Source: Aldrovandia affinis (Eukaryota > Chordata > Actinopteri > Notacanthiformes > Halosauridae). From it: a stretch of DNA of 64,000 nucleotides. Position 1 is the first letter of the stretch. Each line of letters begins with the position of its first letter. The DNA is taken from assembly GCA_029706075.1 (NCBI GenBank), contig JAINUG010000256.1, positions 806,001-870,000 of the forward strand, written 5' to 3'. Shown piece by piece: positions 1-18,595 of the stretch. The notes below the pieces were generated by a model that was not told the origin of the DNA, searched no databases, and saw only the letters and a list, made by a program, of their open reading frames with translations. The translations under genes and the position numbers were made by a program.

Positions 1-239
1 GAGGGCTTAAAAATGTATAAACATACTTCCCAAGTCGTTATTATCAAGTCAGAATCCAAACAGCTTTTTGTCAATTGACCTTAAACAAGTTTTCAGGAAA
101 TTAGAACGCAGATGGTGCTCTACCAATTTAGAGGTTTTTCGCTCTGCTTAGAAGGACAGCCTCATAGAATACAAGCACGCTCTTACTACAGCTATGTCAT
201 CCTACTTTGCTAAATTAATTGACCAGAATAAAAACAACC

Positions 240-724
240 TGTCACGACTCGACCGGCAAACGGGCATTTCCCCCAAGCCCCAATCAGGAGAAGTGAAAGG
301 AATGCCAGGAATGTGCAATCCCAGTCAAGACAATGACTGGCAGCTGTTAGCCCTGAAGGGTATTTAACCTGCTAGCTTCCCTTGCACTGTGCTTGAACAT
401 TCACTGCCCTGAGTTTACCTTACCTGTTGTGTTTGTGTTCTCGCCTCCTTGAAAAGCTTGTCCTCGTTTGTTTGGTAGTTCCTAGTGTTTAGTGTATTCC
501 GTTCCCTGGAATACGTTTTGAGTTTTACTGTTTCGCTTGTTTTGTTTTCTCCTGCTCGTTTGTTGTTTTGGTTTATTTGTAAGTTTTGCTCCATGTCTGT
601 TCAGACACTGTTTTGCCGTTTCCTATTATCTACGTTTAAGGAAAATAAAGCACCTTAAACGTCTCTCTGCATCCTGGGTCTCTCTCTCCTGCAATTGGTT
701 CCCAAACCCACTACATTCCTGACA
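240..724 (+). mobile_element. Solo LTR, Gypsy (sushi-like) family, inserted in the L2
   Basis: A 485-bp LTR bounded by TG and CA with a perfect 5-bp target duplication CAACC (235-239 and 725-729). Its start (cacgactcgaccggcaa), its T-rich middle and its end (ttcctgaca) resemble the LTRs of the Gypsy element at 3041-8381, so it belongs to a related subfamily. No internal region remains, as expected after recombination between two LTRs. It splits the L2 between its NKNN and PRFLF codons. It is a fossil with no coding capacity. Sequence differences from the neighbouring Gypsy LTRs suggest an older, separate insertion. Confidence 0.85.
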
Positions 725-1545
725 CAACCCAAGATTTCTATTTAACATGGTAGCTAAGCTGACAAAAAAACTGTCCTCAGATTACAGCAATTATCCTCCT
801 TACAATTATAGTTATGACTTCATGAACTCGTTGTTTTTAAAAATGTCTCCGATATCTAGTACTCCAACTCCTGAGATGGCACAGGGCTATCAGGAGCAGG
901 GTTACGTAGAGACCCTTTAGTTTTTCGCTCCCTTGAATCTGGACAAATTTCATAAACTGGTTATGTCCTCCAAACCATCTACATGCCTGTTAGACCCCAT
1001 ACCAACAAAGCTTATTAAAGAGCTTTTACCTGTGCTAGGCCAGCCCATGTTAGATATTATAAACACATCCCTATTATTGGGTTACGTACCTAAATCTTTA
1101 AAAGTGGCAGTAATCAAGCCTCTTCTAAAGAAACCAAATCTTGATCCTGATAATCTGAAGAACTATAGGCCCATTTTCGGATTTTTTTCAAATCTTACCT
1201 TTTTCTTACAATTTTTTGAGAAATCTGTAAAACTGCTTTCCTAAAAACAAATAATCTGTATGAAACACTACAGTCAGGTTTTAGACCAAATCATAGCACT
1301 GAGACAGCACTTATTAAAGTTGTAAATGACTTACTGTTAGCATAGGATTCTGGTTGTGTTTCTATTCTAGTGCTCCTTGGCATAAATGCTGCTTTTGACA
1401 CTATTGACCACCAGATTCTCCTTTACAGGGGAGAAAACCTGGTTGGTTTGTGTGGAAGGGCACTCTCATGGTTTAACTCATACCTATCAGACAGGTTTCA
1501 GTTTGTGCAATTAGATCAAGAGTTATCTGACTACTCTCAGGTTAA
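725..1545 (+). mobile_element. L2-like LINE block: first half of reverse transcriptase
   Basis: The block encodes the N-terminal RT region: PSTCLLDPIPTKLIKE, then LKVAVIKPLLKKPNLDP and NYRPI. After a short disturbed stretch it continues into DTIDHQILL and SWFNSYLSDRFQFVQ. At least two frame changes and a stop separate these motifs, so no long open frame survives. It is bordered on the left by the solo LTR's CAACC duplication and on the right by the TTAA of the piggyBac-like insert. Confidence 0.8.
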
Positions 1546-1964
1546 AACCCTTCTGTATGTTAGAAAGTTGTTTCTGTCCCGTGTGTTTGCGGGTCAATTT
1601 TGACCCATGATTTAACTCAGTCCAAAACACTAAAAAACAATGACTATCATCCAATATTGTTTTTACTACATCATAACTAACTTATTATGCATTCATAACC
1701 ATACAATCCTGTTGTAATATTATTTTATGGCCCCAAGACACATTATTTCAATGCACTGCTGGGTTTTCCTGGACCCGAACACCAAAGCATACACTTTTTT
1801 TTAGAGAGACCTTCAGAATTGTCTAAAATGGTCAAAATCTATTTGGTAGTGTTTATATAGCTGTTGTGGAGGATATCATGAAGCCTTGTTCCAAAAAAAA
1901 CAACTAGATGGTAGTTATTATATAATTTTTAACTTGAAACGGACCCTAACATAACAGAAGGGTT
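1546..1964. mobile_element. piggyBac-like MITE inserted in the L2 reverse transcriptase
   Basis: A 419-bp non-coding element flanked by TTAA on both sides (1542-1545 and 1965-1968), the hallmark duplication of piggyBac transposases. The ends are inverted repeats: the left begins AACCCTTCTGTATGTTAG and the right end, reverse-complemented, begins AACCCTTCTGTTATGTTAG. An internal short palindrome (gggtcaattttgaccc) lies near the left end. Removing the element with one TTAA rejoins the L2 codons into the conserved [13 protein letters not shown] motif. No transposase is encoded, so it must have been moved by a piggyBac enzyme acting in trans. Confidence 0.85.
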
Positions 1965-2331
1965 TTAAATATGGTACTCCACAAGGCTCAGTGCTGGGAC
2001 CATTACTGTTCTCATTATACTTGCTACCACTGGGTAATGTTATTTGTAAACATGGTGTAAATTTCCATTGCTTTGCAAATGATACAGAGCTGTACATCAA
2101 TGAAACCAAGTGAAATACTTCAACTCACTCAGTTAGAGGCCTGTATCTCTGATATGAAGAATTGGATGACAGTACATTTCCTGCTTTGGAATTCAGATAA
2201 AACAGAGATGATGGTCTTGGGTCCCAAAAAATTAAGGAATAAGTTGGATCTGCAGATAAATGCAGGTGATTGCCTGGTTGCATCAAATCTGATGGTGTTA
2301 TTATTGATCAGGATCTTACATTTGATGCTCA
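1965..2331 (+). mobile_element. L2-like LINE block: RT catalytic core remainder
   Basis: It continues the L2 from the TTAA with [17 protein letters not shown], then a catalytic-site region that reads FANDTELY where ADDT is expected. It ends with LLWNSDKTEMMVLGPKK and the FDA of the FDAH motif. The missing aspartate is one sign of decay. The block stops at the CTCA duplication of the larger solo LTR. Confidence 0.8.
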
Positions 2332-3040
2332 TGTAACAGGTATGACCGGTGACAGTGCTCAGCCACACCCCTATCTGGTCTTCTCCCACACCTCTACCTG
2401 GAGCTAGGTTGGCCCTTTAAATATGCACTTCCCTTGTGAATCAAGGAGCCCGCGAATTCATTGTTTGGTATTCTTTCGCTGCGTTTCTTTGTCCTCGCTG
2501 GAAGAGTTGTGCTGGTTATCCCTAGCTGGAAAAGCAAATTCGGTTTTGGCTTAACTCTTTCTTTGGCAGCAATTCTGGTTAGTATAGCGATATGCATGCC
2601 CTGGCGAAAACTGTTAGTTGTAGTTTACAATCGTCGGTCCCGTAGCAGTCTCCCGGCCACAGATTGTAAACTACTGTGTTTTAATGTTTATCCATGCATG
2701 CTATTGTGTGTTTTATTGTATTAAATCATACCCCTATTTCACTGTAGACGCAGCTGGTGCACTACGTAGCCTATGCCCTCTGTAGCTACATTAAGGCCAG
2801 GAATGCACTATAGTTTAAAATAAAAACACAGTGTCTTATGTTTTATAACCATAGTGAAGATAGGGCTGTGTGCTCCACACTAGTGAAATGTTTGGGTTTT
2901 CATGCTGTATCATTGTCATGCATTTCTTTATTGTGGTATGTTTCATGATGCTTATGAAATCAGTCATGTGTTTTGTCAATGCCATTTTGTATGTTTTGAT
3001 AACATGGAGTTATCGAGATCAAGTCTGATTAGTTTAAAGG

Positions 3041-3541
3041 TGTAACAATTCGACCGGCAATCAGAAATTTCCCCAAGCGCCAATCAGGAGGAGTAAAAGA
3101 CACGGCAAGAATGCACCTAGCTAATCAAAGTCATTACAGACAGCTGTGTCATCATTTACCGGGAGGACATTTTACCAGATGAATTTCTCTGTTCCTTGCT
3201 TGGACAATATCTTGCTTGCTTTGTCGAAACCTCTATTGCCTAGTGTGCTTGCCTCTCGTGACATTGTTTATTCGTGTTCTTGTTTGTTTTCTTTGATTGC
3301 CAGTGTTTTGTTTATTCCGTGTTTCTGGAATACGTTTTGGAGTTTCTTATTAGCTAGTTTGGTTTGTTCCGGGTCGTTTGTTTATTTTGTTTTGTTTTGT
3401 TAGTTCTCTGTGTTTTCGCGACACGGTTTTGCTTTCGTTCCTGCCAGCGTTAAGATTAAATAAATATTCTTAACGCATCTACGCATTCTGGGTCTCTCTC
3501 TCTCTCTCGCACTTGGTTCCACACCTACTAAAACCCTGACA
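3041..3541 (+). repeat. 5' LTR of the Gypsy chromovirus
   Basis: A 501-bp direct repeat of 7882-8381, bounded by TG and CA. It contains an AT-rich block with AATAAA-like signals near 3457-3465 and a short CT run near its end. The base before it closes the AAAGG target duplication. Confidence 0.93.
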
Positions 3542-3543
3542 GA

Positions 3544-5200
3544 ATGTCCAAGCCTACAACGGAACCAGCAGAAACCGAGGCGACTCAGAGCTTCCTGCGC
3601 ACGACAATCCAGAACCAGGAAGTTTCCATCAGACGGCAGGATCAGGCTATTGCTCTGCTGACAGAACAACTCAACACTTTCAGCCAGCAAACATCCAGCC
3701 AATTCAACACCATCACAAAGCTGCTTCAAACTACACTCCCTACTGCCGTTTCTCAGCCTCAACAGGAACCCATGATCAACACCCAAGCCAGCCTGTCTCG
3801 CGAACCACGGCTCCCGGCGCCAGAGTGCTACGACGGCAACCCCACAGTTTCCTCACTCAGTGCTCACTGGCTTTTGAACTTCAACCTGCACAATTACCCA
3901 GCAATCGCTCCCGGATAGCTTATATCATCTCCTTTCTTAAAGGAACCGCTCTGCAATGGGCGACTGCTATCTGGGAGGAACAGGGACACATCTGCGACAG
4001 CTACCTTCAATTAAGTTCCGAGTTGAGGAAGGTGTTCGACCATCCGTTCCGGGGTCGTGAAGCAGCTAACCAGCTGCTCCGGATCTAGCAGGGAGGTCGA
4101 ACAGTGGCAGCTTACGCTATCGAGTTCCGCACCCTGGCCGCAGAGAGCCGCTGGAATAATGAGGCATTGATAGCAGCGTTTCGGCAAGGTCTCAGCGAGG
4201 GGCTGAAGGACGAACTCGTGATCCATGGGCATATTGAGCAATGGGAAGAACTCATAGATTTAGCCATACAGCTGGATAATCGTCACCAGGAACGCATGCT
4301 CGAGCGCCGTAACAACAACCCCATTCCTCGACCTCGGACATCACTCTCACTACGAACTGAATCACTCCCGTCAGTTTTCCATTCACAGCCTCAAGCTCTT
4401 CCCAGTAAACAAGAGGAACCCATGCAGTTGGGTAGAACCCGCCTCTCTACCATGGAAAGGAACGACGCCGGAGGGAAAACTGCTGTATGTACTGTGGTCA
4501 TTTTGGGCATTTCCGGGGTTCCTGTCCGGAGTTACAGGGAAATACCAATGCTTCTACCACACCGGAAGCAGTCACTCCCGGTTCTGAACACCTCACGGGG
4601 TTGGTGCTACCGATCTTCCTGCGCTGGAACAGCTCGCAACACTCATCTCCAGCCCTCATTGATTCTGGAGCAGCAGGGGATTTCATTGATTTGAATTTTG
4701 CCCGGCAACTTCAAATTCCTCTGGTGACGTTGGACTCCCCTCTGTCCGTCACAGCCCTGGACGGCAAACCACTGGGATCCGGTGCAGTCACACAGCGGAC
4801 TATTCCCATCCAAGTCACCATCGGGGAGAACCACACCGAGCGGATGGAGTTTTTTGTCACACAATCTCCCCAGCTACCCCTCGTGCTTGGCTACCCCTGG
4901 CTAAGCAGGCACAACCCCCACATCGACTGGAACGCAGAGAAAATACTGGGCTGGGGTTTAGCTTGTCAGGGCACATGTCTACTGCCTCACCCTTCCACTG
5001 CCATTTCACGCTGGGAACCAGAAATCCAGGAGTGGGCCCGAGTGCCGCCGGTGTACCGTGACCTCCAGGCGGTGTTCAGCAGGCAACACACCTCCATTCT
5101 GCCACCTCACCATCCCTACGACTGTGCCATCGATCTACTGCCGGGAACCAGTCCCCCCCGGGGCAAGATCTTTTCACTGTCCAGAACGGAGACGATGGCG
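3544..5200 (+). mobile_element. Gypsy fossil: gag and protease part
   Basis: The part begins with a gag-like acidic and glutamine-rich region, followed by a capsid-like segment. A CCHC zinc knuckle lies near 4485-4530. The aspartic protease motif DSGA lies near 4660. The order is that of chromovirus gag and the start of pol. The frame is broken in several places, so no gag protein is expected. Confidence 0.8.
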
Positions 5201-5269
5201 ATGACTACCTACATCCGGGAGGCACTGGGCCCGGGCACATTCGTCCTTCCACCTTGCCGGCGGGAGCAG

Positions 5270-7714
5270 GGTTTTCTTTGTGGAGAAGAAGGATGGGGGT
5301 CTGCGGCCATGTATCGACTACCGAGGCCTCAACAACATCACTGTGAAGAACAGGTACCCTCTTCCTCTCATGTCCACGGCCTTCGAGATGCTCCAGGGCG
5401 CTACCGTATTTTCCAAACTAGACCTCAGGTGTGCATACAACCTAGTGCGCATTCGCGAAGGGGATGAATGGAAAACCGCCTTCAACACGCCGACGGGGCA
5501 TTACGAGTATCTCATCATGCCGTTTGGGCTCTCCAACAGTCCGTAAGTGTTCCAAGCACTGATTAACGACGTATTGAGAGAGGCACTCAACCGCTTTGTG
5601 TTTGTGTACCTGGACGACATTCTCATTTTCTCCAGGAATGTCCAGGACCACGAACAACATGTGCGACATGTCCTTCAGCTGCTCCTAAAGAACCAACTGT
5701 ATGTTAAACTGGAGAAGAGTGAGTTCCACTCTTCCACGGTCACTTTTCTTGGATTCATTTTACACGCAGGCAGCATCCAAATGGATCCAACCAAGACCCA
5801 GGCGGTCAGAGACTGGCCACGCCCCACCTCCGTCAAACAGGTGCAATGTTTCCTTGGCTTCGCCAATTTTTACCGACGATTCATCCGGGATTTCGGAACG
5901 GTGGCGGTTCCACTCACCAACCTGACCCGGGGTAAGGAAAAAGCATTCATCTGGACACCCGCAGCTGAACAAGCCTTCCTACGTCTCAAACAGCGCTTCA
6001 CCTCAGCACCCATCCTGACTATTCCGGACCCATCTCTGCCCTTCGTGGTTGAGGTAGACGCTTCCAACACAGGCATCGGAGCCGTCCTATCTCAACGGAT
6101 TAAGCCAGACAACAAACTCCGCCCATGTGCCTTCCTGTCACACCGCTTGACACCCACCGAGTGCAACTACGACATTGGGGACCGCGAATTACTGGCGGTG
6201 AAAAAAGCACTGGAGGAGTGGCGTCACTGGCTGGAGGGTTCAGTCCACCCATTCACTGTTTGGACCGATCATAAGAACTTGGAATACCTACAGCAGGCCA
6301 AGTGGCTGAACCCCCGGCAAGCTAGGTGGGCATTGTTTTTCAACCGGTTTCAGTTCACACTTTCCTACCGTCCGGGGTCTAAGAATCAGAAACCCGACTC
6401 TCTCTCCCAGATCTTTGAAGCCCCTGACACCGTCGCCCCTGTGGAGACCATCCTCTCACCAAGCCGCATCGTCGCCCCGGTCCAGTGGGGCATTGACACC
6501 GTGGTTCGTCGGGCTTTACGAACGGAACCTGACCCAGGCAATGGCCCACCTAACCGTTGTTTTGTACCCTCAGCCGTTCGGAACCAAGTACTACAATGGG
6601 GTCACGCCTCTTGTCTCACCGGACATCCAGGGGTGACTCGCACCCTGGAGTTTCTTAGTCGACGGTTCTGGTGGCCCAAGATGGAAGAGGAGGTCCGGTC
6701 ATTCGTTCTGGCTTGCGCTGTGTGCACCCAGCACAAAAACCCCCGGACACGTCCCCAAGGGCTACTCCATCCTCTGCCCATTCCCCGCCGCCCATGGTCC
6801 CACATCTCCATGGACTCCATGGGCTACCCCATTCGCACGGTCAAACTGCGGTTTTCGTGGTTGTGGACCGTTTTTCCAAGGCCTGCCGTTTCATTCCTCT
6901 GCCCAAACTGCCCTCGGCCCAGGAGACTGCTGAACTGGTGGTCGAACATGTGTTTCGGGTGTTTGGTCTTCCCTCCAACATCGTGTCCGACCGTGGTCCT
7001 CAATTTACTGCCCGGTTCTGGAAGGCATTCTGCACACTCCTTGGAGCCACAGCCAGCCTCTCATCAGGATACCACCCCCAGTCCAACGGGCAGACAGAGC
7101 GGGTTAACCAGGACATGGAGACGACTCTGCGGTGCCTATCGGCATCCAACCCCAAGTCCTGGAGCCGCAATCTTCCTTGGGCTGAATACGCCCACAACAC
7201 CCTTTGCTGCTCCGCCACCGGGATGTCACCCTTCGAGGCTCAGTTCGGCTACCAGCCTCCTCTCTTCCCTGACCAGGAGAGGGAAACCGTGGTTCCTTCG
7301 GCAGAACTTCATGTGCGACGATGCAAACAAGCCTGGAAGAGAGCCAGGTTAGTCATCGAACGCACCACCCAACAACACCGTAAGCAAGCCGACCGTCTCC
7401 GTCGTCCAGCACTCACATTTCACCCTGGCCAGAGGGTCTGGTTATCAACACGGGATCTACCCCTCAAGGTGGAGAACCGCAAGTTGGCTCCACGTTTTGT
7501 AGGTCCCTTCAAAGTGGTCCGCCGGGTTAATCCGGTAGTTTATCATCTCTCACTGCCTCCAGAGATGCGCCGTGTACACCCTACATTCCACGTCTCCCGT
7601 CTTCGGCCACTGCTCGTTGGGGCACACACACCACCGGCTAAGCCTCCTCCCGCCCCTTGTCTCATCAACGGCCACCCGGCGTACACCGTTCGCCATCTGC
7701 TCCAATCCCGTTGA
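5270..7714 (+). mobile_element. Gypsy fossil: RT, RNase H and integrase part
   Basis: Reverse transcriptase motifs include [17 protein letters not shown] and the catalytic YLDD near 5608-5620. RNase H follows with [17 protein letters not shown] near 6045. The integrase zinc-binding region ([10 protein letters not shown], then C..C near 6715) comes next, then the catalytic core with DRFSKACRF and the [15 protein letters not shown] motif near 7070. The order RT, RNase H, integrase is diagnostic of Gypsy rather than Copia. The region is interrupted and not expected to make a working polyprotein. Confidence 0.9.
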
Positions 7715-7865
7715 GTGCAGTCAGGAGTCCAGTACCTGGTGGACTGGGAGGGATACGGACCGGCGGATCGGTCCTGGATTCCGGCAAAGCAGATTCTGGA
7801 TCCGGCTCTCATCCGGGACTTCAAGGCTCAGCAGGCGGCTCTTCCTGGACCGTCGGGAGTCGGTC
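7715..7865 (+). mobile_element. Gypsy fossil: chromodomain
   Basis: The segment encodes a chromodomain core ([17 protein letters not shown]) directly after the integrase C-terminal region. In chromoviruses this domain is thought to steer integration towards marked chromatin. It supports the subfamily call. Confidence 0.88.
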
Positions 7866-7881
7866 CTAGGGGGGGGGGTTC

Positions 7882-8381
7882 TGTAACGATTCGACCGGCA
7901 ATCAGAAATTTCCCCCAGCGCCAATCAGGAGGAGTAAAAAGACACGGCAAGAATGCACCTAGCTAATCAAAGTCATTACAGACAGCTGTGATCATTTACC
8001 GGGAGGACATTTTACCAGCTGAATTTCTCTGTTCCTTGCTTGGACAATATCTTGCTTGCTTTGTCGAAACCTCTATTGCCTAGTGTGCTTGCCTCTCGTG
8101 ACATTGTTTATTCGTGTTCTTGTTTGTTTTCTTAGATTGCCAGTGTTTTGTTTATTCCGTGTTTCTGGAATACGTTTTGGAGTTTCTTATTAGCTAGTTT
8201 GGTTTGTTCCGGGTCGTTTGTTTATTTTGTTTTGTTTTGTTAGTTCTCTGTGTTTTCGCGACATGGTTTTGCTTTCGTTCCTGCCAGCGTTAAGATTAAA
8301 TAAATATTCTTAACGCATCTACGCATTCTGGGTCTCTCTCTCTCTCTCGCACTTGGTTCCACACCTACTAAAACCCTGACA
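7882..8381 (+). repeat. 3' LTR of the Gypsy chromovirus
   Basis: A 500-bp repeat of 3041-3541 with about eight differences seen by eye. A G-rich polypurine tract sits immediately before it. It ends CCTGACA, followed by the AAAGG target duplication. Confidence 0.93.
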
Positions 8382-8824
8382 AAAGGGATGGTGTATTCCA
8401 CCCTAATTCTGTGGTTTTAAGATTAATAATGAAAGGATGTGTATTGTAATTGTGATGTTCTGAGTATGGCCAGAGGCGGCACTGAGCTAGCTTTGCTTCT
8501 GTTTTAGGACTTGCCTGTACGGTTTACCACTAAAATATTGTTAACACCAATGTAAGGCAGAGCACATTTATGTGTTGATTATTTTGTTTGACCTTTTTGT
8601 TATTGTTTTGCCTAAACCACCTCCCCCCTCGCCTACCCCTTGTCCCAGATAGGAGACTTGGCCCCCATTCTCTGTGCCTCTGTAGAACACTAGGGTCCCA
8701 GCCCCTGGATCTTTCCTCCACTCCTGGTTTCCGTTGCCCATTAGAGGGGTATACTTTACTTTGCTGTGCACAAAGATAATCACAACCCCTAAAGAGTGCC
8801 CATAGCAGGGTGTATTCTATTTAT

Positions 8825-9313
8825 AATTACGATGTGATAATCACAGGGCTGGCGATCAGACCAAGGAATTACGCTCAGGCTACGAAAGGGGCCACGTCGG
8901 TGAACGGTGTAGTAGAACACGAGGAGACAACCGAGGAACAGGTAACAGCGTTCCTTCGGGGCAAAAACATGGTGATTGACAGGGAATGTATTGAAGCATG
9001 TCACACACTGCCAGCCAGGGATCCGAAAAACAAGCCTGCCATAATCATACGTTTTGCAAATAGGAAACATAAAGTTGATCTGCTTAGGCAGGGAAGGAAG
9101 CTGAAAGGCTCTAATGTTTATATCAATGAGCACCTCACCAAGAGAAATGCAGATATAGCTTGGAAAGCAAGGTTACTCAGGAAACAGGGTAAGATTCAAT
9201 CTACTTGGACCATCAGCTGCAAAGTCTTTATCAAACCAAAGGGTGCACAAGAGAACGCCAAAGGGCTGTGTATCAGGAGCTTAGACCAACTGGACAGGTT
9301 CGATAGAGACTAG
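8825..9313 (+). mobile_element. LINE ORF1 remnant
   Basis: An open stretch of about 160 codons encoding DVIITGLAIRPRNYA, then FLRGKNMVIDRECIEACHTL, AIIIRFANRKHKVDLLRQGR and VYINEHLTKRNADIAWKAR. The pattern resembles the RRM-like RNA-binding ORF1 proteins of fish LINEs. An upstream coiled-coil part is missing. The stop at 9311-9313 is followed after about 40 bases by the ORF2 start. Confidence 0.7.
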
Positions 9314-9352
9314 TAGCAGGTGTGTTCATAGGGTATAGAAAGATAGGCTACT

Positions 9353-10065
9353 ATGCCCATCATGGATTTTGAACGAGAGATAGACCCAGATTATAATCTA
9401 TTGGACAATATCAACACCAATTGCTGCTATTACACAGAGCAACAGTTTAATTCAAGTATTACATATGAACATGGTATATCTATAGTTCATTTCAACAGTA
9501 GAAGTTTGTATGCAAATTTTCAGAAAATAAAAGATTATTTAGGACATTTTAAAAACCCTTTAATATCATAGCTGTGTCAGAAACATGGATCGATGAAGAC
9601 AGGGGATCCGATTTTGTTCTACAAGGATATGGTTTTCATTGCATCAGCAGAGGGAATGGAAAGGGTGGTGGTGTGGCTGAAGGTCTCTCATATAAGGTTG
9701 TTGATAACATGTCAACAGTCATTGATGATGTGATGGAATGTATTACTGTTGAGATAACTATGGAAAGAATGAAAAATGTAAGTGTGAGCTGTGTGTATAG
9801 AAAACCAGGATCTAACATTGACACATTCATGGCAAATATGGAAAGGTTGTTTTCCACATCAAAGCAAAAGGTTAAGTATGTATGTGGGGATTTTAACATC
9901 GATCTGCTGAATCCAAACAAACATGGAAAAACAGATGAATTCATTGAAGTAATGTACAGTATGAGCCTTTTTCCAACAATTACAAGACCTAGTAGAATAA
10001 CATCCGAATGTGCTTCCCTAATCGATAACATATTTACAAACAATATGGAAAGTAATATGATAAGC
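9353..10065 (+). mobile_element. LINE ORF2: AP endonuclease, first part
   Basis: It starts MPIMDFEREIDPDYN and shows endonuclease motifs HFNSRSLYANF, VSETWIDEDRG, CVYRKPGS and CGDFNIDLL. One frame change lies near 9565-9575, between FKNP and IAVSETW. The domain is cut at 10,065 by the hAT insertion and resumes at 12,836 with LLIEDISDHLPVF, the conserved endonuclease C-terminal motif. Confidence 0.82.
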
Positions 10066-10734
10066 CAGGGGTGTCAAACTCATTTCACATCGTGGGCCAC
10101 ATACGGCCTAGGTAGATGTCAAGTGGGCCGGACCATTAAAATTATACCATACTCTGCTATAAATAACCAAAATATCATGTCTTTCCTTTGTTTTGGTGTA
10201 AAGAAGCACAAGAACATTAGGAAAATCTTGAAATTTAATGAACAATCCTTTTACAAAACATTTCACGAAACACCTCATATTTCCTTAGACAAATGTGCAA
10301 TTTACTTTTATCATTCACATATATGCATTGCAACTGATCCCACTGATTGTACAAAGGCACAAAACTTTAACAAGTAATTGGTATTGAAAAATATAGTAAT
10401 GCACTTTAAGATTAAATGAGACTTATAAAGAAAGGAATTTTTAAACCATTTACACATGTGCATATAAAATCTAAATTGAATCCCTGCCTACACCTTACAA
10501 ACTAAGGAGAGTGCTATTAAATGTGTAAAGAAGAAAGTATTCACCTGTCCTGTAAATGTGTAAACTTCATACATGAAACATACATACACATACAATACAT
10601 ACTGAAAATGTATGGAGTTGCATGAACAGTAGAATTCCACCATACTCTTTTGTAGTGAAGCTGCTGACTAACATTAAATTGCACATTTTTTTAATCACCA
10701 CAGTAAGGATTCATCTTCACAGAGCTGTATTCTT

Positions 10735-11280
10735 TCAATGAAAACAGTATCTAAGGCAGCATTTTAAAGGCGTTAGTCTAGTCTGGACTTGTTTTGTTCC
10801 TGAAACTTGGCATCTTTTGGCCTGTACAAGTGCATCAACACCAGGTGTCATGTCCTGACTAGCTGTCACTTTCAGAATGTCATTTAAGTGCTTGTTTGTG
10901 AGCTTTGAACGCATTTTTGTTTTATTGATATTCATTACTGAGAAAATTTGTTCACAAAGGTAGGTTGTCCCAAACATGCACAAAATTTTAGCAGCCAGGG
11001 CTGTTAATTTGGGGTACCCTGGTAGTAGATACTGATAAAATTTGTCCAGACCTACGGAGGCAAATTTGCCCTTCAAATCTGCATCACATTGCAAATCAAT
11101 TATTTCTAGCTGGATGTCGACCGGCAGATCAGAAGCTTTAACTGTGAAAGGTGAGCGAAAAACTGAAAATTCTGTCTCAAGTTCACCAAATACCTGAAAA
11201 CGTTTCTCAAACTCCCACAGTAATCCTGCAATCTTGTCTTTGTACCGTTTCACGTCCGCATCAGGTCTGGTCACACACAT
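10735..11280 (-). pseudogene. hAT transposase C-terminal dimerisation region
   Basis: Open for 181 codons in the same frame as the catalytic part. It includes FEKRFQVFGELETEFSVFRS, LPGYPKLTALAAKILCMFG and the hATC-type motif YLCEQIFSVMNINKTKMRS followed by NKHLNDIL. The last residues run into non-family sequence near the element's end. Confidence 0.82.
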
Positions 11281-11283
11281 CTC

Positions 11284-12072
11284 TCAGACAGGGAAATGAG
11301 CAGGGTCGCCACTTGCCAGTTGCGTCTCCCACAAAGTCAGCTTCAACTTAAATGCATGTATGTTGTCAGAAAACTGTGTGACAACTTTTTTGCGGCCTTG
11401 CAACATTTTGTTCAGATTGTTCAAGTGTTCAGTAATATCAACCAAAAATGCAAGGTCCTGTACCCATTCCTGAGATTGTAATTCCAACACCGGTTTTCCT
11501 TTTTTCTCCATGAACTGTCCGATTTCCTCTCGTAGATCAAAGAAATGCCTCAGCACAGCGCCTCGGCTTAACCATCTCACTTCAGTGTGGTATGGCAGGC
11601 TGTGGGTAATGTTGCTGTCGCTGAGAAGTTTGTCAAACTGACGATGGTTCAGACCTCTGGCTCGGATGAAATTTACAGTGCGAACAACCACCTCCATGAC
11701 GTGGTCCATTTTCAAGGACTTGCAACACAATGCCTCCTGGTGCAAAATACAGTGAAATGTCCAGAAACGATCTCCTCCATTAAGGGCTTGTACTTTCTCT
11801 CTGAACTTTGTCGCAACACCTGCTTTCTTTCCGACCATGGATGGTGCGCCGTCTGTAGCCAGGCTGACAGCACGGGACCAGTCCACTCCAACTCTGTCCA
11901 GTGCAGCAACGACAGAGTCGAAAATGTCCTTGGCTGTTGTGGTGTCCATCATTGGCACCAACTCAAGAAACTCTTCAGTAACAGTCAATGTCTCATCAAC
12001 TCCACGAATAAATATGGCCAGTTGAGCCACGTCTGTGATGTCAGTGCTCGTCAATTGCAACGGAAAATGCAA
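11284..12072 (-). pseudogene. hAT transposase catalytic region
   Basis: About 262 codons open on the minus strand: DVAQLAIFIRGVDETLTVTE, ELVPMMDTTTAKDIFD, WSRAVSLATDGAPSMVGKKA, FHCILHQEALC and VRWLSRGAVL. These are hallmarks of the GTF2IRD2/EPM2AIP1/ZBED5-like hAT group. The frame ends at a TGA (11,284-11,286). The following codons remain in frame and continue the family pattern, so this is a simple nonsense lesion. Confidence 0.85.
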
Positions 12073-12165
12073 TAAATGACTTGACTCTCTGTTTCAATTG
12101 GCTGTCTAAATCTGCCGATAGTTCGAAATCCTCTCTGCTATAGTATTCTCGTCAGGCTAATATTG

Positions 12166-12590
12166 TCAAAAGCTTGTCGCTTCGGGACATACAAGTTCAG
12201 CCGCCTTCATCATGCATCGTTTAACAAAGTCACCGTCGGAATACGGCTTTGATGCCAATGCTATTTCGCTAGCAATTAGGTAGCTGGCTTTTACCGCTGC
12301 TTCACTGACTTCTCGGCTCTGGGTGAAAGTTGACTGCTGTTTCCTCAGACCCGCCAGCAATTCGTCTCGTAGTGGCGTCGAATATTATATTCCTTCAATA
12401 CCGAAACTTGTTGCAAACACACCAAGCACAAAGGTTTCCCGTGCATCTCTGTAAATAAATAGGACGTGGTCCATTTTTCTTTGAAAATTCTACACTCCTT
12501 ATCTACTTTTCTCCGTTTGGATAACGACATTTTGGCTAATGAGGGTGTAGCGGGGAGGTAGAGACCAGGGTAGAAACAACGTCGTAACAA
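12166..12590 (-). pseudogene. hAT transposase N-terminal part (zinc finger), broken
   Basis: The minus strand encodes MSLSKRRKVDKECRIFKEKW, then LCLVCLQQVSVLKEYNIRRH followed by YETNC, a BED-like C2HC zinc finger of the kind used for DNA binding by hAT transposases. The frame then shifts into KQQSTFTQSREVSEAAVKAS and ELVCPEATSF. At least one frameshift separates the two parts (near 12,345-12,360), and more damage precedes the catalytic region. Confidence 0.75.
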
Positions 12591-12835
12591 GCAGCAGATG
12601 GCGCATTGATACCGTCTGCTGTGTTCGGTCTGTCTCAGTGATGCGGCTTGTCTTCTACTCTGATCAAAACAGTGCGCCCCCTAGCGGATAATCAATCATT
12701 GCAGCTAATTAAAAATATTAAATCCGTGTCTTTTATGCATTTTTTCACTTTCAAATTATCCTGCGGGCCTGATCGAACCTCCTTGGGGGCCGGTTCCGGC
12801 CCGCGGGCCGTATGTTTGACACCCCTGTGATAAGC

Positions 12836-14300
12836 GGACTATTAATTGAAGATATTAGTGATCACTTGCCTGTGTTTTCAGTTTACGAATGTAATTATAA
12901 GAAGAAGAGGGAGTTAAAGGAAACAAAATATAAGAGAATAAGAACTGACGAAACTATATCTGCTTTTAGAAATGAGTTATTGCAATGCAATTGGAAGAGT
13001 ATATGTGATGAATCTGATGTTGACAAAGCTTATGGGTTATTTCTAGATAAATTTAAAGTCCTATATGTCAAAAACTGCCCACTGAAACAGTGTAGCAATA
13101 AAAACAAGTATGTAGAAAATCCGTGGATGTCCAAAGGCATACAAAATGCATGCAAAAAAAAAGAATACTCTATATAAGATATTTATTAAAGACAAAACAA
13201 AAGAGGCAGAGCTAAAATACAAGAAATATAAAAACAAATTAATTAGTATTATGAGGAGATGCAAGAAGGATTATTATACCAAATTATTAGATAAAAATAA
13301 AAATAATGTTAAAGGAATATGGAACATATTAAATAATATTATTAGAAATAGACAAACCAACTCAAATTACCCTGATTACTTCATAGAAAAAGACAGAAAG
13401 ATTTCTCTTATAAATGAGGTAGTGGATGGGTTTAATAAATTTTTCGTTGATGTGGGCCCAAATCTAGCCAAAGAAATATGCAATTCTGGAAAGAGTTTTG
13501 CAGTAGAAGATTTTGGAGAGAGAAACTCCATTTCAATGTCATTGGGAACTGTGGAGAAAGAGGAAATTATTGATATGGTAAACAAATGCATGAATAAAAC
13601 CTCCAAAGATGGGGATGATATTGATATGTCTCTTGTAAAGAATATTATTGAGGGAATTGTGGAGCCACTAACGCATATATACAATTTGTCATTCAAAAGG
13701 GGAACATTCCCAGAAAAAATGAAAATTGCAAAAGTTATTCCATTATTTAAAGCTGGAGACAAACATCTCTTCACAAATTATAGACCGATATCTCTGTTAT
13801 CACAATTCTCAAAGATACTTGAAAAACTATATGTTACAAGATTGGACAACTTCATTGAAAAACATAATCTACTAATGGACTGCCAGTATGGGTTTAGAAC
13901 AGCTAGATCTACCTCCATGGCATTAATGGAGCTTGTAGAGGAAATAACCGACTGCATAGAGAAAAAAAGTACGTACTAGGAATATTTATTGACCTAAAAA
14001 AGCTTTTGACACAATAGATCATGAGATACTACTGAAAAAGATGGACAAGTTGGGTGTCAGAGGGGTTGCTCTGGAATGGATGAAAAGCTATATTAGTAGC
14101 AGGCAGCAATTCGTACAGATGGGCCAGCACAAGTCAGAACTTTTAAACACTACCTGTGGTGTCCCACAGGGTCAGTATTGGGACCCAAACTGTTCATTTT
14201 ATATATAAACGATATCTGTAAAGTGTCTGACATATTCAAACTTGTTGTCTTTGCGGACGACACAAATATTTTATGTTCGGGGATGACCTGCAGCAGCTTT
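12836..14300 (+). mobile_element. LINE ORF2: endonuclease end and reverse transcriptase
   Basis: It resumes directly after the hAT target duplication with GLLIEDISDHLPVFSVYE. A linker rich in lysine follows. The RT begins near 13,700 with FPEKMKIAKVIPLFKAGDK, NYRPISLL, YGFRTARSTSMAL, a broken FIDL..KAFDTIDHEI near 13,990, CGVPQGS near 14,155 and VVFADDTNIL near 14,250-14,272. Frame changes lie near 13,160, 13,975, 14,000 and 14,175. The FADD catalytic residues remain readable. Confidence 0.8.
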
Positions 14301-15514
14301 TAGAGGTGGCAAAGAAAGAAATGGAAAAATTAAAATGTTGGTTCGACACAAATAAGCTGTCACTCAACTTGAAAAAACCAACTTCATATTATTTGGAAAT
14401 CGAAAAATAAACACTGAACCTCGTCTGAAATTGACAATGTACAAATTGAGAGAGTATATGAAAACAAGTTTCTAGGGGTTTTAGTAGACCACAAACTCTG
14501 CTGGAAACCTCACATAAAGTATCTGTGTCCAAAGATAGCAAGAAGTATTGGAATACTGGGTAAGACTAGATATATCTTGAATCAGAAAACTCTATATACA
14601 CTGTACTGTACACTCATTGTACCATATCTGTCATACTGTGTTGAAGTCTGGGGAATACATATAAAAGCAACTTACAAAAGATATGCACACTACAAAAAAG
14701 AGCCATACGGATAGTTCATCACGGTAGATATCTAGATCACACAAATGGTTTGTTTATAAAGAGTCAAACATTGAAATTCATGGACTTAGTCAAATTCAAA
14801 CTGCACAAATTATGTTTTTAGCAATAAAAACATATTACCAAGCAACATTCAAAAATTTTATAGGTAGAGAGGGGGTTATAATTTAAGAGGGACACTGATG
14901 TTAAAACAACCTACTTTACGTACGACTCTTAAAAGTATGTGCATTTCAGTTTGTGGGGTATCACTCTGGAATGGTCTGGATGGGAGCATAAAGTTGAGCA
15001 ATAACATTAAACACTTTAAAGGCAGCTATAAACAAGCAATTATGGACAAGTACAAGAAAGAGGAGCTTGAGCAGTAATGCGACTGCTTAATAAGATAAGA
15101 TAAGTTAGACCTTTATAAATATATATAATATAAATAAATATAGATAATATAAATGAATATATATAATATAAATATAATATATTTTTGTTATATTTGTTAT
15201 ACTTAATATATAAATAGATTTTTTTGTTATTTTTGTTATATTTGTGATACTTAAATGTACTGATATATTTTTGTTATATTTGTTATACTTAGGTTTAGAA
15301 AGAAACTGTATTTTATTTTCATATAATGTAAAATATTGTAAGGAAGGGGCAGGACTGGATAAGTGTTTTACTTCCTCCTGTCCCTTCTCGAACGCTTTTT
15401 TAGGACTGTATGGAAATAGTTTGTTAGACTATTTACCATTTTTAACTTGTTTCTATGTCTTCTATGTTCGAGACAAATAAAGATCAAATCAAATCAAATC
15501 AAATCAAATCAAAT
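14300..15514 (+). mobile_element. LINE 3' part: ORF2 C-terminus, AT-rich tail and AAATC repeats
   Basis: Broken coding sequence continues to about 15,077 (KLCWKPHIKYLCPKIARSI region near 14,500, then the last codons DKYKKEELEQ). It is followed by about 190 bases of ATA-rich sequence, with repeated tttttgttatatttgttata motifs near 15,180-15,290. Six or so AAATC units at 15,484-15,514 form the terminal repeat, after an AATAAA at 15,476-15,481. Confidence 0.75.
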
Positions 15515-15923
15515 CCCTACAGATTGACGCCCTGGTGCCACCCCTTGTACTGTTCCCCTTAGTGCCTTGCTGGCTCCTGTGGGTGAGCGTTGTCCTGGGC
15601 CTTGCTCCTTCCCCCCCCCACCTCCTTCCCTGTTCTATTAAGGGAGGTGGTACCTTCCCTTTTCAGTTGATTTGTTTTGTGCCTACCATTCTTTGTATCC
15701 AACACTCTGTCTCCAATGAGCCTCTAAAAAATGACAACCAAGACGAGACAAATAAATACATTTAGTATTTTTGTACTACAGCCTCTGTCTAAGTTCATTT
15801 AATTGAACCTCCTTGTGCGGGGAAGTATTTACCAAGTCAGGATCTCTCACCTATCAAATGAGACGGGCGTAGTCACTATCTTCATTGGTTAATTGCCAGG
15901 GCATAGCGACCCGGCAGATTACA

Positions 15924-16312
15924 CTCATATTAAAGACACTTCCAGAGTGGCTTTCTTTCACCTAAGAAACATCGTTAAAATTAGGTACTTTCTGTCATTA
16001 GAGGATGCAAAAATGTTTATGCATACTTTTGTCGCATCGAGGCTAGACTATTGTAATGCCTTACTATCTGGCTGCTCTAGTAGCTCTCTTAAGAGTCTTC
16101 AACTAGTACAGAATACAGCAGCACGTATTTTGACAAGATGTAAGAAGGATGAGCACATTACTCCTATGTTAGCATCACTACATCGGCTTCCTGTTCAATA
16201 TCGGGCTGATTATAATGTACTGCTGCTAACTTTTAAATCAGTGCATGGACTTGCACCTATATATCTGACCGAAAAGATTATCCCTTATAAGCCGACGACA
16301 CGACTGTTTAGT
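15924..16312 (+). mobile_element. L2-like LINE block: ORF2 C-terminal part
   Basis: After the CTCA duplication the L2 resumes with HIKDTSRVAFFHLRNIVKIR. It continues with HTFVASRLDYCNALLSGC, LQLVQNTAARILTR and LHRLPVQYRADYNVLLLTFK. It is open throughout and ends near PYKPTTRLF, where it abuts an antisense L2 of another subfamily. The usual LWNSLP segment and 3' end are missing from this copy. Confidence 0.82.
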
Positions 16313-18030
16313 TGATTTAATTTGATTGAACACCAGACGTGCCGCAGCATTCTGGACCAGTTGTAGTGGCTTGATGGCACAGGCCGGTAGACCTGCCAAC
16401 AAGGAATTGCAGTAGTCCAGACGTGAGATCACCAGGGCCTGGACCAGGAGTTGTGTGGCCTCTTGGGTGAGGAACGGTCTGATCCTCCGGATGTTATGGA
16501 GGGAGAATCGGCAGGTCCGGGTGATCGCTGCAATATGGCCCGGGAAGTACAGCTGGTCGTCCAGGGTCACTCCAAGACTCCTGGCAGACTGGGACGGAGA
16601 CACTATGGCGCCACTATATATTGCTGAGTTGTTTGTCCCATATACCACAACAAGGTATATATGCTTCTAGACTCTGGAATAGCCTCCCCTCTTATATTCG
16701 ATCCGCTGAATCAGTCTCAGCTTTAAATCTCATCTAATCTTGAAACTCATTTTTACAGATTGACTTTCCCCAATGTATGATTTATTATATTGATTGTGCA
16801 TTTTTACTTGTTTTAGTTTTTATATTAGTATCCATTGTTATGTTTTTCTTTTATTGCCCTTTGTTCTCTGCTATTTTACTGTCTTTTGTCAAGCACCTTG
16901 TGCTCATAGCTAGAAAGGTGCTCTATAAATAAACATATTATTATTATTATTATTATTATTATGGAGCCTTCCATGGTGATTGAAGCATCACTGGGAGGAA
17001 GAGCAGCTCTGTCTCCTCCAGGTTCAGCTTCAGGTGGTGGGTGGACATCCAGGCAGAGATGTCTGCCAGGCATGCAGAGATCTGCGCCGGGACCTGGGTC
17101 TCAGAAGGAGTGAAGGAGAGAAAGAGTTGAGTGTCTTCAGCATAACAGTGATAAGAAAAACCATGAGCAGAGACGACAGAACCAAGTGATTTGGTGTACA
17201 GGGAGAATAGGAGGGGGCCTACCACCGAGCCCTGTGGGACTCCAGTGGAGAACGTGTGGGGAGAGGGGAGGGATCTTCTCCAGGCCACCTGGTAGGATCG
17301 GTCAGCTCAGTATGACTTGAACAATGTCAGTGCAGATCCAGAAATTCCCATCTCGACGAGAGATAAGAGCAGGATCTGGTGGTCCAGAATGCAGCTGACA
17401 GGTCGAGGAGGAGGAGGACAGAGCTGAGAGATTGGGATGTAATTGTACAGCCTCAGTGACTGTGAGCAGGGCAGTCTCTGTGGAGTGGCCTGCCTTGAAC
17501 CCAGATTGGTTAGGATCAAGCAGGTCATTCTGTAGGAGATAGGCAGACAGTTGGTTATGTACAGCCCGCTCTAGTGTTTTGGAAAGGAATGAGAGGAGAG
17601 AGACAGGTCGGTAATTAGAAATGACAGCAGGATTCAGAGAGGGTTTGAGGAGGGGGATGACATGGGCGCTTTTGAGGAGAGAGGGGACAGAGCCAGAGGA
17701 AAGAGAGGAGTTGATATCATTGGAGACAAAGGGGAGGATATCCATAGCGATGGACTGGAAAAGGGGGGAAGGAATGAGATCGAGAGGGCAGTTGGTAAGA
17801 CGGTGGGAGTGAACATGAAGGATGTCAGAGTCAGGGTGAGAAGGAAGACAGGGGGGTGAGAGGTTACACAGCGAGATGGCTGAGGGAGGGTTAGGTGCGG
17901 GAGGGGATGGGGGGAAGGAGTTGCGAATGTCACCGACCTTGTGAAAGAAGGATGAAAAGTTGTCCGCGGTTAGAGAGCAGGGGGTGGAGGAGTAGGAGGG
18001 GTGAGGAGAGAGGAAAACGTACTCTGGTTT
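16313..18030 (-). mobile_element. Antisense L2-like LINE fragment, split by a short L2
   Basis: A minus-strand L2 of a GC-rich subfamily. Block 16,961-about 18,030 encodes the [57 protein letters not shown] and YHCYAEDTQLFLSF. Block 16,313-16,612 continues with SPSQSARSLGVTLDDQ, CRFSLHNIRRIRPFLTQEAT and SRLDYCNSLLAGL. A frameshift near 17,300-17,450 and an AEDT in place of ADDT show decay. Both ends are truncated. Its missing 3' end faces the missing 3' end of the plus-strand L2 at 16,312. Confidence 0.83.
16613..16960 (+). mobile_element. Short 5'-truncated L2 3' end inserted in the antisense L2
   Basis: The sequence encodes the L2 tail motif SRLWNSLPSYIRSAESVSA with a short frame disturbance. 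It continues through a 3' UTR (gtgctctataaataaaca) into ATT repeats ending at 16,960. Near-identical 8-mers flank it: ATGGCGCC at 16,605-16,612 and ATGGAGCC at 16,961-16,968, a likely target duplication. Removing it joins the two antisense L2 blocks near their SPSQSARS motif. Confidence 0.72.
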
Positions 18031-18595
18031 TGAGCACTTTATGAAGGCTAACAGTTTGTATGTACCTGTCAGTGCTGGGCATACTGTATGTATTTAGATG
18101 TATTTAGGAAACTTGTGTATGTATGTACAGAATGTATGCATGTATGTATGTGTAATGATTGATCTATTGGAATAAATTCATACCATGTCATCCTTATTGG
18201 ACATGGATGCTCTCTTTTTGATGTGTGGCTCCAGGAAGCTCAGACACCTCAGAATCCACTCCTGACTTGCAGTCTTCCCCCAGCACTCCCAGATGGTGGC
18301 ATCTTGGAGTAGCAGTTGTATTGCGTTCTAGGTTAATGCATTTTCTCGTTCACTTTGACTTGTTGACTTTATCTGCAATTAAATATTTCATGTTATTATT
18401 CATTCACATGAAAATAAATCATTAGTTGTCATCATGATAACAATTCCCAAGGTGACTCATTCTCTTAACATTTGCGACTCTGAGACTAGTGTGGTCTCCT
18501 TTCACTTAGTAATCTTCCCATCTAATGTTACAGGTTAAATTTGGGTTCTGTGTTGTGTGGCCATATCAGTCTAGAAATCATCTCAATCTTTTTTT
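18031..18595. other. Intergenic sequence, no gene seen
   Basis: AT-rich unique-looking DNA with a short GTAT/GTATGTAT run near 18,115-18,155. Open frames here are short and show no recognisable motif. Confidence 0.5.

Follow-up and report, generated by a model that had tools for sequence, protein, structure and literature searches.

The window analysed here, 64,000 nucleotides of the genome of Aldrovandia affinis (C1734:806,001-870,000), opens with a nest of transposable elements, whose members are listed in Table 1. The outermost host is a minus-strand LINE, LINE-B. Inserted into it is L2-A, which we provisionally assign to the L2 clade after an earlier reading of the same DNA, hereafter the sequence-only reading. 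L2-A harbors a solo LTR (LTR1), a short piggyBac-like element and a long LTR (LTR-long); LTR-long holds a Gypsy-type retrotransposon and a second LINE, LINE-C, and LINE-C is itself interrupted by a hAT element. The nest is real: at every site for which a target duplication had been quoted in the sequence-only reading, the host is uninterrupted in its relatives, and each inner element breaks a host that is unbroken in other copies.

Table 1. Elements of the nest, from the outermost host inwards. Positions are those of the window unless a contig position (C1734) is given.
Element	Position	Strand	Ends, duplications and other marks
LINE-B, outermost host	16,322-17,983	-	similarity to relatives at 16,322-16,612 and 16,960-17,983; right end provisional
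Short insert with ATT tail, in LINE-B	16,613-16,959	+	duplication TATGGCGCC/TATGGAGCC, 8 of 9
L2-A, inserted in LINE-B	1-16,321, with its start at C1734:803,771 (2,230 bp beyond the left edge of the window)	+	TTGATTG duplication
L2-A, body pieces	1-239, 725-1,545, 1,965-2,331, 15,924-16,306, then a short TTTGAT-like tail	+	
LTR1, solo LTR, in L2-A	240-724	+	CAACC duplication; about 67% alike to the Gypsy LTRs at 3,041-8,381
piggyBac-like short element, in L2-A	1,546-1,964		inverted ends AACCCTTCTG/CAGAAGGGTT; flanked by TTAA on either side
LTR-long, read as a solo LTR, in L2-A	2,332-15,923	+	TGTAAC...TTACA ends; CTCA duplication
LTR-long, own sequence	2,332-3,040, 8,382-~8,820, ~15,507-15,923	+	
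Gypsy-type LTR retrotransposon, in LTR-long	3,041-8,381; LTRs 3,041-3,541 and 7,882-8,381	+	AAAGG duplication
LINE-C, 5'-truncated LINE in the minisatellite of LTR-long	8,829-15,515	+	endonuclease-like and RT pieces; (CAAAT)n tail
hAT, in LINE-C	10,066-12,827	-	inverted ends with 14 identical bp; TGATAAGC duplication

Relatives were sought in an assembly of 1,222,302,279 bases in 2,576 contigs; they are near, best-scoring copies (the best 40 candidates at most per search) and not a random sample. At each insertion site, the overlap of the host flanks was determined in relatives without the insert, counting only copies that span the site. For the inserts in L2-A, the L2-A pieces of the window were set against 27 L2 copies (L002-L008, L027-L046). 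The overlap at the LTR1 site was 5 bp in all seven spanning copies (20 of the 27 did not span), at the piggyBac-like site 4 bp in 14 of 15 and 5 bp in one (12 not spanning), and at the LTR-long site 4 bp in 20 of 22 and 6 bp in two (5 not spanning). The Gypsy site was compared in 29 relatives of LTR-long and gave 5 bp in 17 of 17 spanning copies, 12 not spanning; the hAT site gave 8 bp in both LINE-C relatives fetched, each of which spans it. CAACC, TTAA, CTCA, AAAGG and TGATAAGC, the five duplications quoted earlier, indeed flank their elements and have a matching overlap in nearly all spanning relatives, and the proposed chain of a hAT in a LINE in a solo LTR in an L2 is borne out. Altogether, target duplications were seen for L2-A, LTR1, the piggyBac-like element, LTR-long, Gypsy and hAT; that of the short insert has one mismatch in nine positions, and for LINE-C no clean one was found.

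What lies beneath L2-A became apparent only outside the window. A Pfam match to RVT_1 falls in the LINE-B region (17,305-18,093). LINE-B relatives match from 16,322 and then continue into sequence that is absent there in the window; this 3' part of LINE-B is found at C1734:803,553-803,770 (L025 7,553-7,770), 2.2 kb left of the window. In the assembly, 18.55 kb separate the two parts, a stretch that holds L2-A together with everything inserted in it, and in 15 of 15 LINE-B relatives the parts join with a 7-bp overlap, TTGATTG; copies of this heptamer stand at 16,322-16,328 and at C1734:803,764-803,770. Since the LINE-B parts are contiguous in all 15 relatives, L2-A is an insertion in LINE-B, and the deepest point of the nest therefore comprises five layers (hAT, LINE-C, LTR-long, L2-A, LINE-B) rather than the four counted before. 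The sequence-only reading had placed one L2 at the base of the stack and had taken the minus-strand LINE as a seventh insertion, which is the reverse of the relation found; it missed the outer host because the other part of LINE-B sits outside the window. The nest also shows that the edge of a window can make the order of nesting come out reversed.

The body of L2-A ends at about 16,306, and seven of seven relatives inspected there run on into a 3' region that the window lacks. In the three copies measured (L006, L025, L004), the TTTGAT-repeat tail lies 0.77-0.92 kb from the equivalent of 16,287, so that about 0.75-0.9 kb have gone from the 3' region of L2-A; the exact TTTGAT-repeat tail is missing in two of six relatives inspected. 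The earlier claim that taking out an insert always brings back the frame or motif of the host is not upheld for this L2. We also considered that a deletion might have joined the L2 to LINE-B at 16,306-16,322, and gave this up once the absent part of LINE-B had turned up to the left of the window. Within the left part of L2-A lies a 205-bp hAT-like element (L025 8,817-9,021; C1734:804,817-805,021) with inverted ends CAGGGGTGGGCAATC, flanked on both sides by ATCTAGAC. Both families, L2-A and LINE-B, have other members in plus orientation in the 10 kb left of the window (L025 1-1,346 and 5,410-6,755), and L025 ~6,880-7,250, near the left stop of the LINE-B 3' part, reads like what we take to be a fragment of a Harbinger-type transposase.

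The short ATT-tailed insert also interrupts LINE-B. It probably represents an L2 from a different family, truncated at its 5' end. It had been regarded as the tail of the same L2, but it has no match to the L2-A relatives. The last bases of its duplication, TATGGCGCC versus TATGGAGCC, merge into the ATT tail on one side. By script, the expected overlap was obtained in 11 of 15 LINE-B relatives and a gap of 8-9 in three, one copy not spanning; for the gap cases L019 and L024 an alignment from the first base exists too, and the script chose the smaller absolute number. Inspected by eye, LINE-B is unbroken at this site in 14 of the 15 relatives, the exception being L021.

Relatives of LTR1 carry 5-bp duplications of their own, for example CTTAT and GTTGT. 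The piggyBac-like element (419 bp) combines a TTAA target with CCC-type inverted ends, and we presume from these that it belongs to the piggyBac superfamily; the open-reading-frame scan gave no frame of at least 150 aa in it.

The own 4-bp duplications of LTR-long relatives are exact in seven of the nine copies with both ends placed and agree at three of four positions in the other two. LTR-long gave no paired LTRs, and no second LTR was found in the roughly 9.2 kb past the shared flank described below. The terminal motifs (TGTAAC/GTTACA) would also suit a DNA transposon, a possibility that we regard as less likely: among 21 LTR-long relatives, one pair (L066, L071) has a common 3' flank, which favours an LTR although no second LTR was found. 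This flank, about 0.7 kb long and 81% identical, begins about 60 bp after the LTR and appears gag-like by eye; two of its frames gave no Pfam match. The Gypsy element within LTR-long has its coding region split into separate frames with Pfam matches to RVP_2, RVT_1, RT_RNaseH and Integrase_H2C2. Two LTRs, a short duplication and predicted protease, RT, RNase H and integrase in this order are what would be expected of a Gypsy/Ty3 element.

Relatives of LTR-long run from 8,822 to 15,507 through the minisatellite without LINE-C. The preceding piece of LTR-long is taken to end at about 8,820 because both LINE-C relatives already hold bases from about 8,829. Compared with the relatives, the insertion site of LINE-C revealed no clean target duplication; about 20-25 bp of target were apparently lost and about 8 bp gained, figures that are uncertain within the minisatellite. 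Here, too, removal of the insert fails to restore the host, contrary to what had been claimed for every element. LINE-C has many close copies: 17 of the 39 other matches listed reach 97% across the full query and exceed it in length by 10-12 bases, and in two aligned relatives this length difference explains most of the shortfall in identity. Over about 2.7 kb, 5 substitutions distinguish the window copy from one of these two and 4 from the other, and among the three copies compared 4-8 substitutions were counted per 2.7-3.0 kb. The LINE-C family, which numbers 17 close copies or more, may be active now. The inner hAT has the 8-bp duplication and the terminal inverted repeats of its superfamily. 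Its putative transposase frame (10,735-12,093) holds one internal stop; the match to Dimer_Tnp_hAT reaches 21.2 bits, just below the curated 21.4, and the larger frame gave no Pfam match.

The arrangement is almost certainly an ordinary nest that arose from independent insertions, each by the usual mechanism of its family. It is barely credible that the minus-strand LINE at 16.3-18.0 kb instead inserted into or beside one L2, with four layers in all and the tail of that L2 at 16.66-16.96 kb. Judged by eye and inside the window alone, L2-like sequence does seem to flank 16,310-16,660, but past 16,306 the L2 relatives continue with their different 3' region, several with a TTTGAT-repeat tail, the ATT-tailed piece breaks a LINE-B that runs straight on in 14 of 15 relatives, and the remainder of LINE-B lies left of L2-A, joined across the 7-bp overlap in all 15 relatives. 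That part of the arrangement is a rearrangement or a mis-assembly among repeats, and not serial insertion, is very improbable as well. Near-identical relatives such as those of LINE-C are where assemblers err, and extra copies of LINE-B and L2-A are present within 10 kb to the left; however, matching duplications at six sites are unlike the products of mis-joins, the contig is 1.29 Mb long with no N in the window or in the 10 kb left of it, and LINE-C in the window differs by 12 bases in length from its nearest relatives.

On this reading of serial insertion, LINE-B was in place first. L2-A then entered it, leaving the TTGATTG duplication, and separately the short ATT-tailed element entered LINE-B. 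L2-A received LTR1, the piggyBac-like element, LTR-long and, left of the window, the small hAT-like element; LTR-long received Gypsy and LINE-C, and LINE-C the hAT. The enzymes presumed to have driven each step are those to which end motifs and duplication lengths point, and LTR1 and LTR-long would have become solo by recombination between paired LTRs. Nesting yields a partial order only: LTR1, the piggyBac-like element and LTR-long are siblings within L2-A, and Gypsy and LINE-C are siblings within LTR-long. Of the proposal that seven insertions can be ordered, the partial order holds, and the full order and the seventh insertion do not.

The sequence-only reading had called so complete a stratigraphy in 16 kb uncommon. 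Nesting of transposable elements has been described as widespread (PMC2672092, PMC2517846), and REANNOTATE resolves nested elements, which are seen across eukaryotes (PMC2672092). As in the nests treated there, an older element is split by a younger one, the interruption gives the order and LTR divergence serves as an independent clock; different from there, the present case is one locus with several element classes and with contiguous relatives for each step. The interruption analysis of mammalian genomes likewise lets younger elements that interrupt older ones give the relative age of families, but it is genome-wide and not confined to one locus (PMC2517846). A nest in a fish genome is also known from medaka, where Rex1 lies inside Izanagi at dmrt1bY; that nest has a regulatory role (PMC5789577). 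Such nests, and the idea of reading them as a clock, are thus far from new (PMC2672092, PMC2517846), and nothing here is new in kind; what the locus offers is one well-anchored partial order for several transposon families in this genome.

It had been proposed to compare divergence ranks with the nesting order. We did so with private changes instead of distances to a consensus, and the figures are rough because the relatives are best-scoring copies and no random sample. For LINE-B, L2-A and LTR-long, a change was counted only where at least 80% of at least five aligned copies agree; LTR1 was analysed by parsimony with five relatives and LINE-C against two. Private changes amounted to 30/759 (3.95%, interval 2.7-5.6) in LINE-B, 61/1477 (4.13%, interval 3.2-5.3) in L2-A and 59/1330 (4.44%, interval 3.4-5.7) in LTR-long, so that the three oldest layers are nominally reversed from the outside in, with widely overlapping intervals. 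LTR1 has 6/479 (1.3%), 5 of 499 sites separate the two LTRs of Gypsy (K2P 1.0%, about 0.5% per LTR) and LINE-C has 1/2718 (0.04%); the best relative of the piggyBac-like element among the matches listed is 97% identical over 385 bases. Divergence agrees with nesting for L2-A and LTR1, for LTR-long and Gypsy and for LTR-long and LINE-C, and weakly for L2-A and the piggyBac-like element; it gives no order for LINE-B and L2-A or for L2-A and LTR-long, the intervals overlapping. Among the siblings, LTR1 is younger than LTR-long, and Gypsy is probably older than LINE-C.

The layers split into old ones, with about 4% private change, and recent ones, from 1.3% down to 0.04%. Since LINE-C has one private change in 2718 sites and the hAT lies inside it, the hAT should be younger still. 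It is tempting to speculate that both are so young that they are still segregating, a supposition that we consider plausible though slightly doubtful. If it is true, empty alleles of the locus exist in the population, and the hAT family is still moving, its damaged copies being carried by an intact relative.
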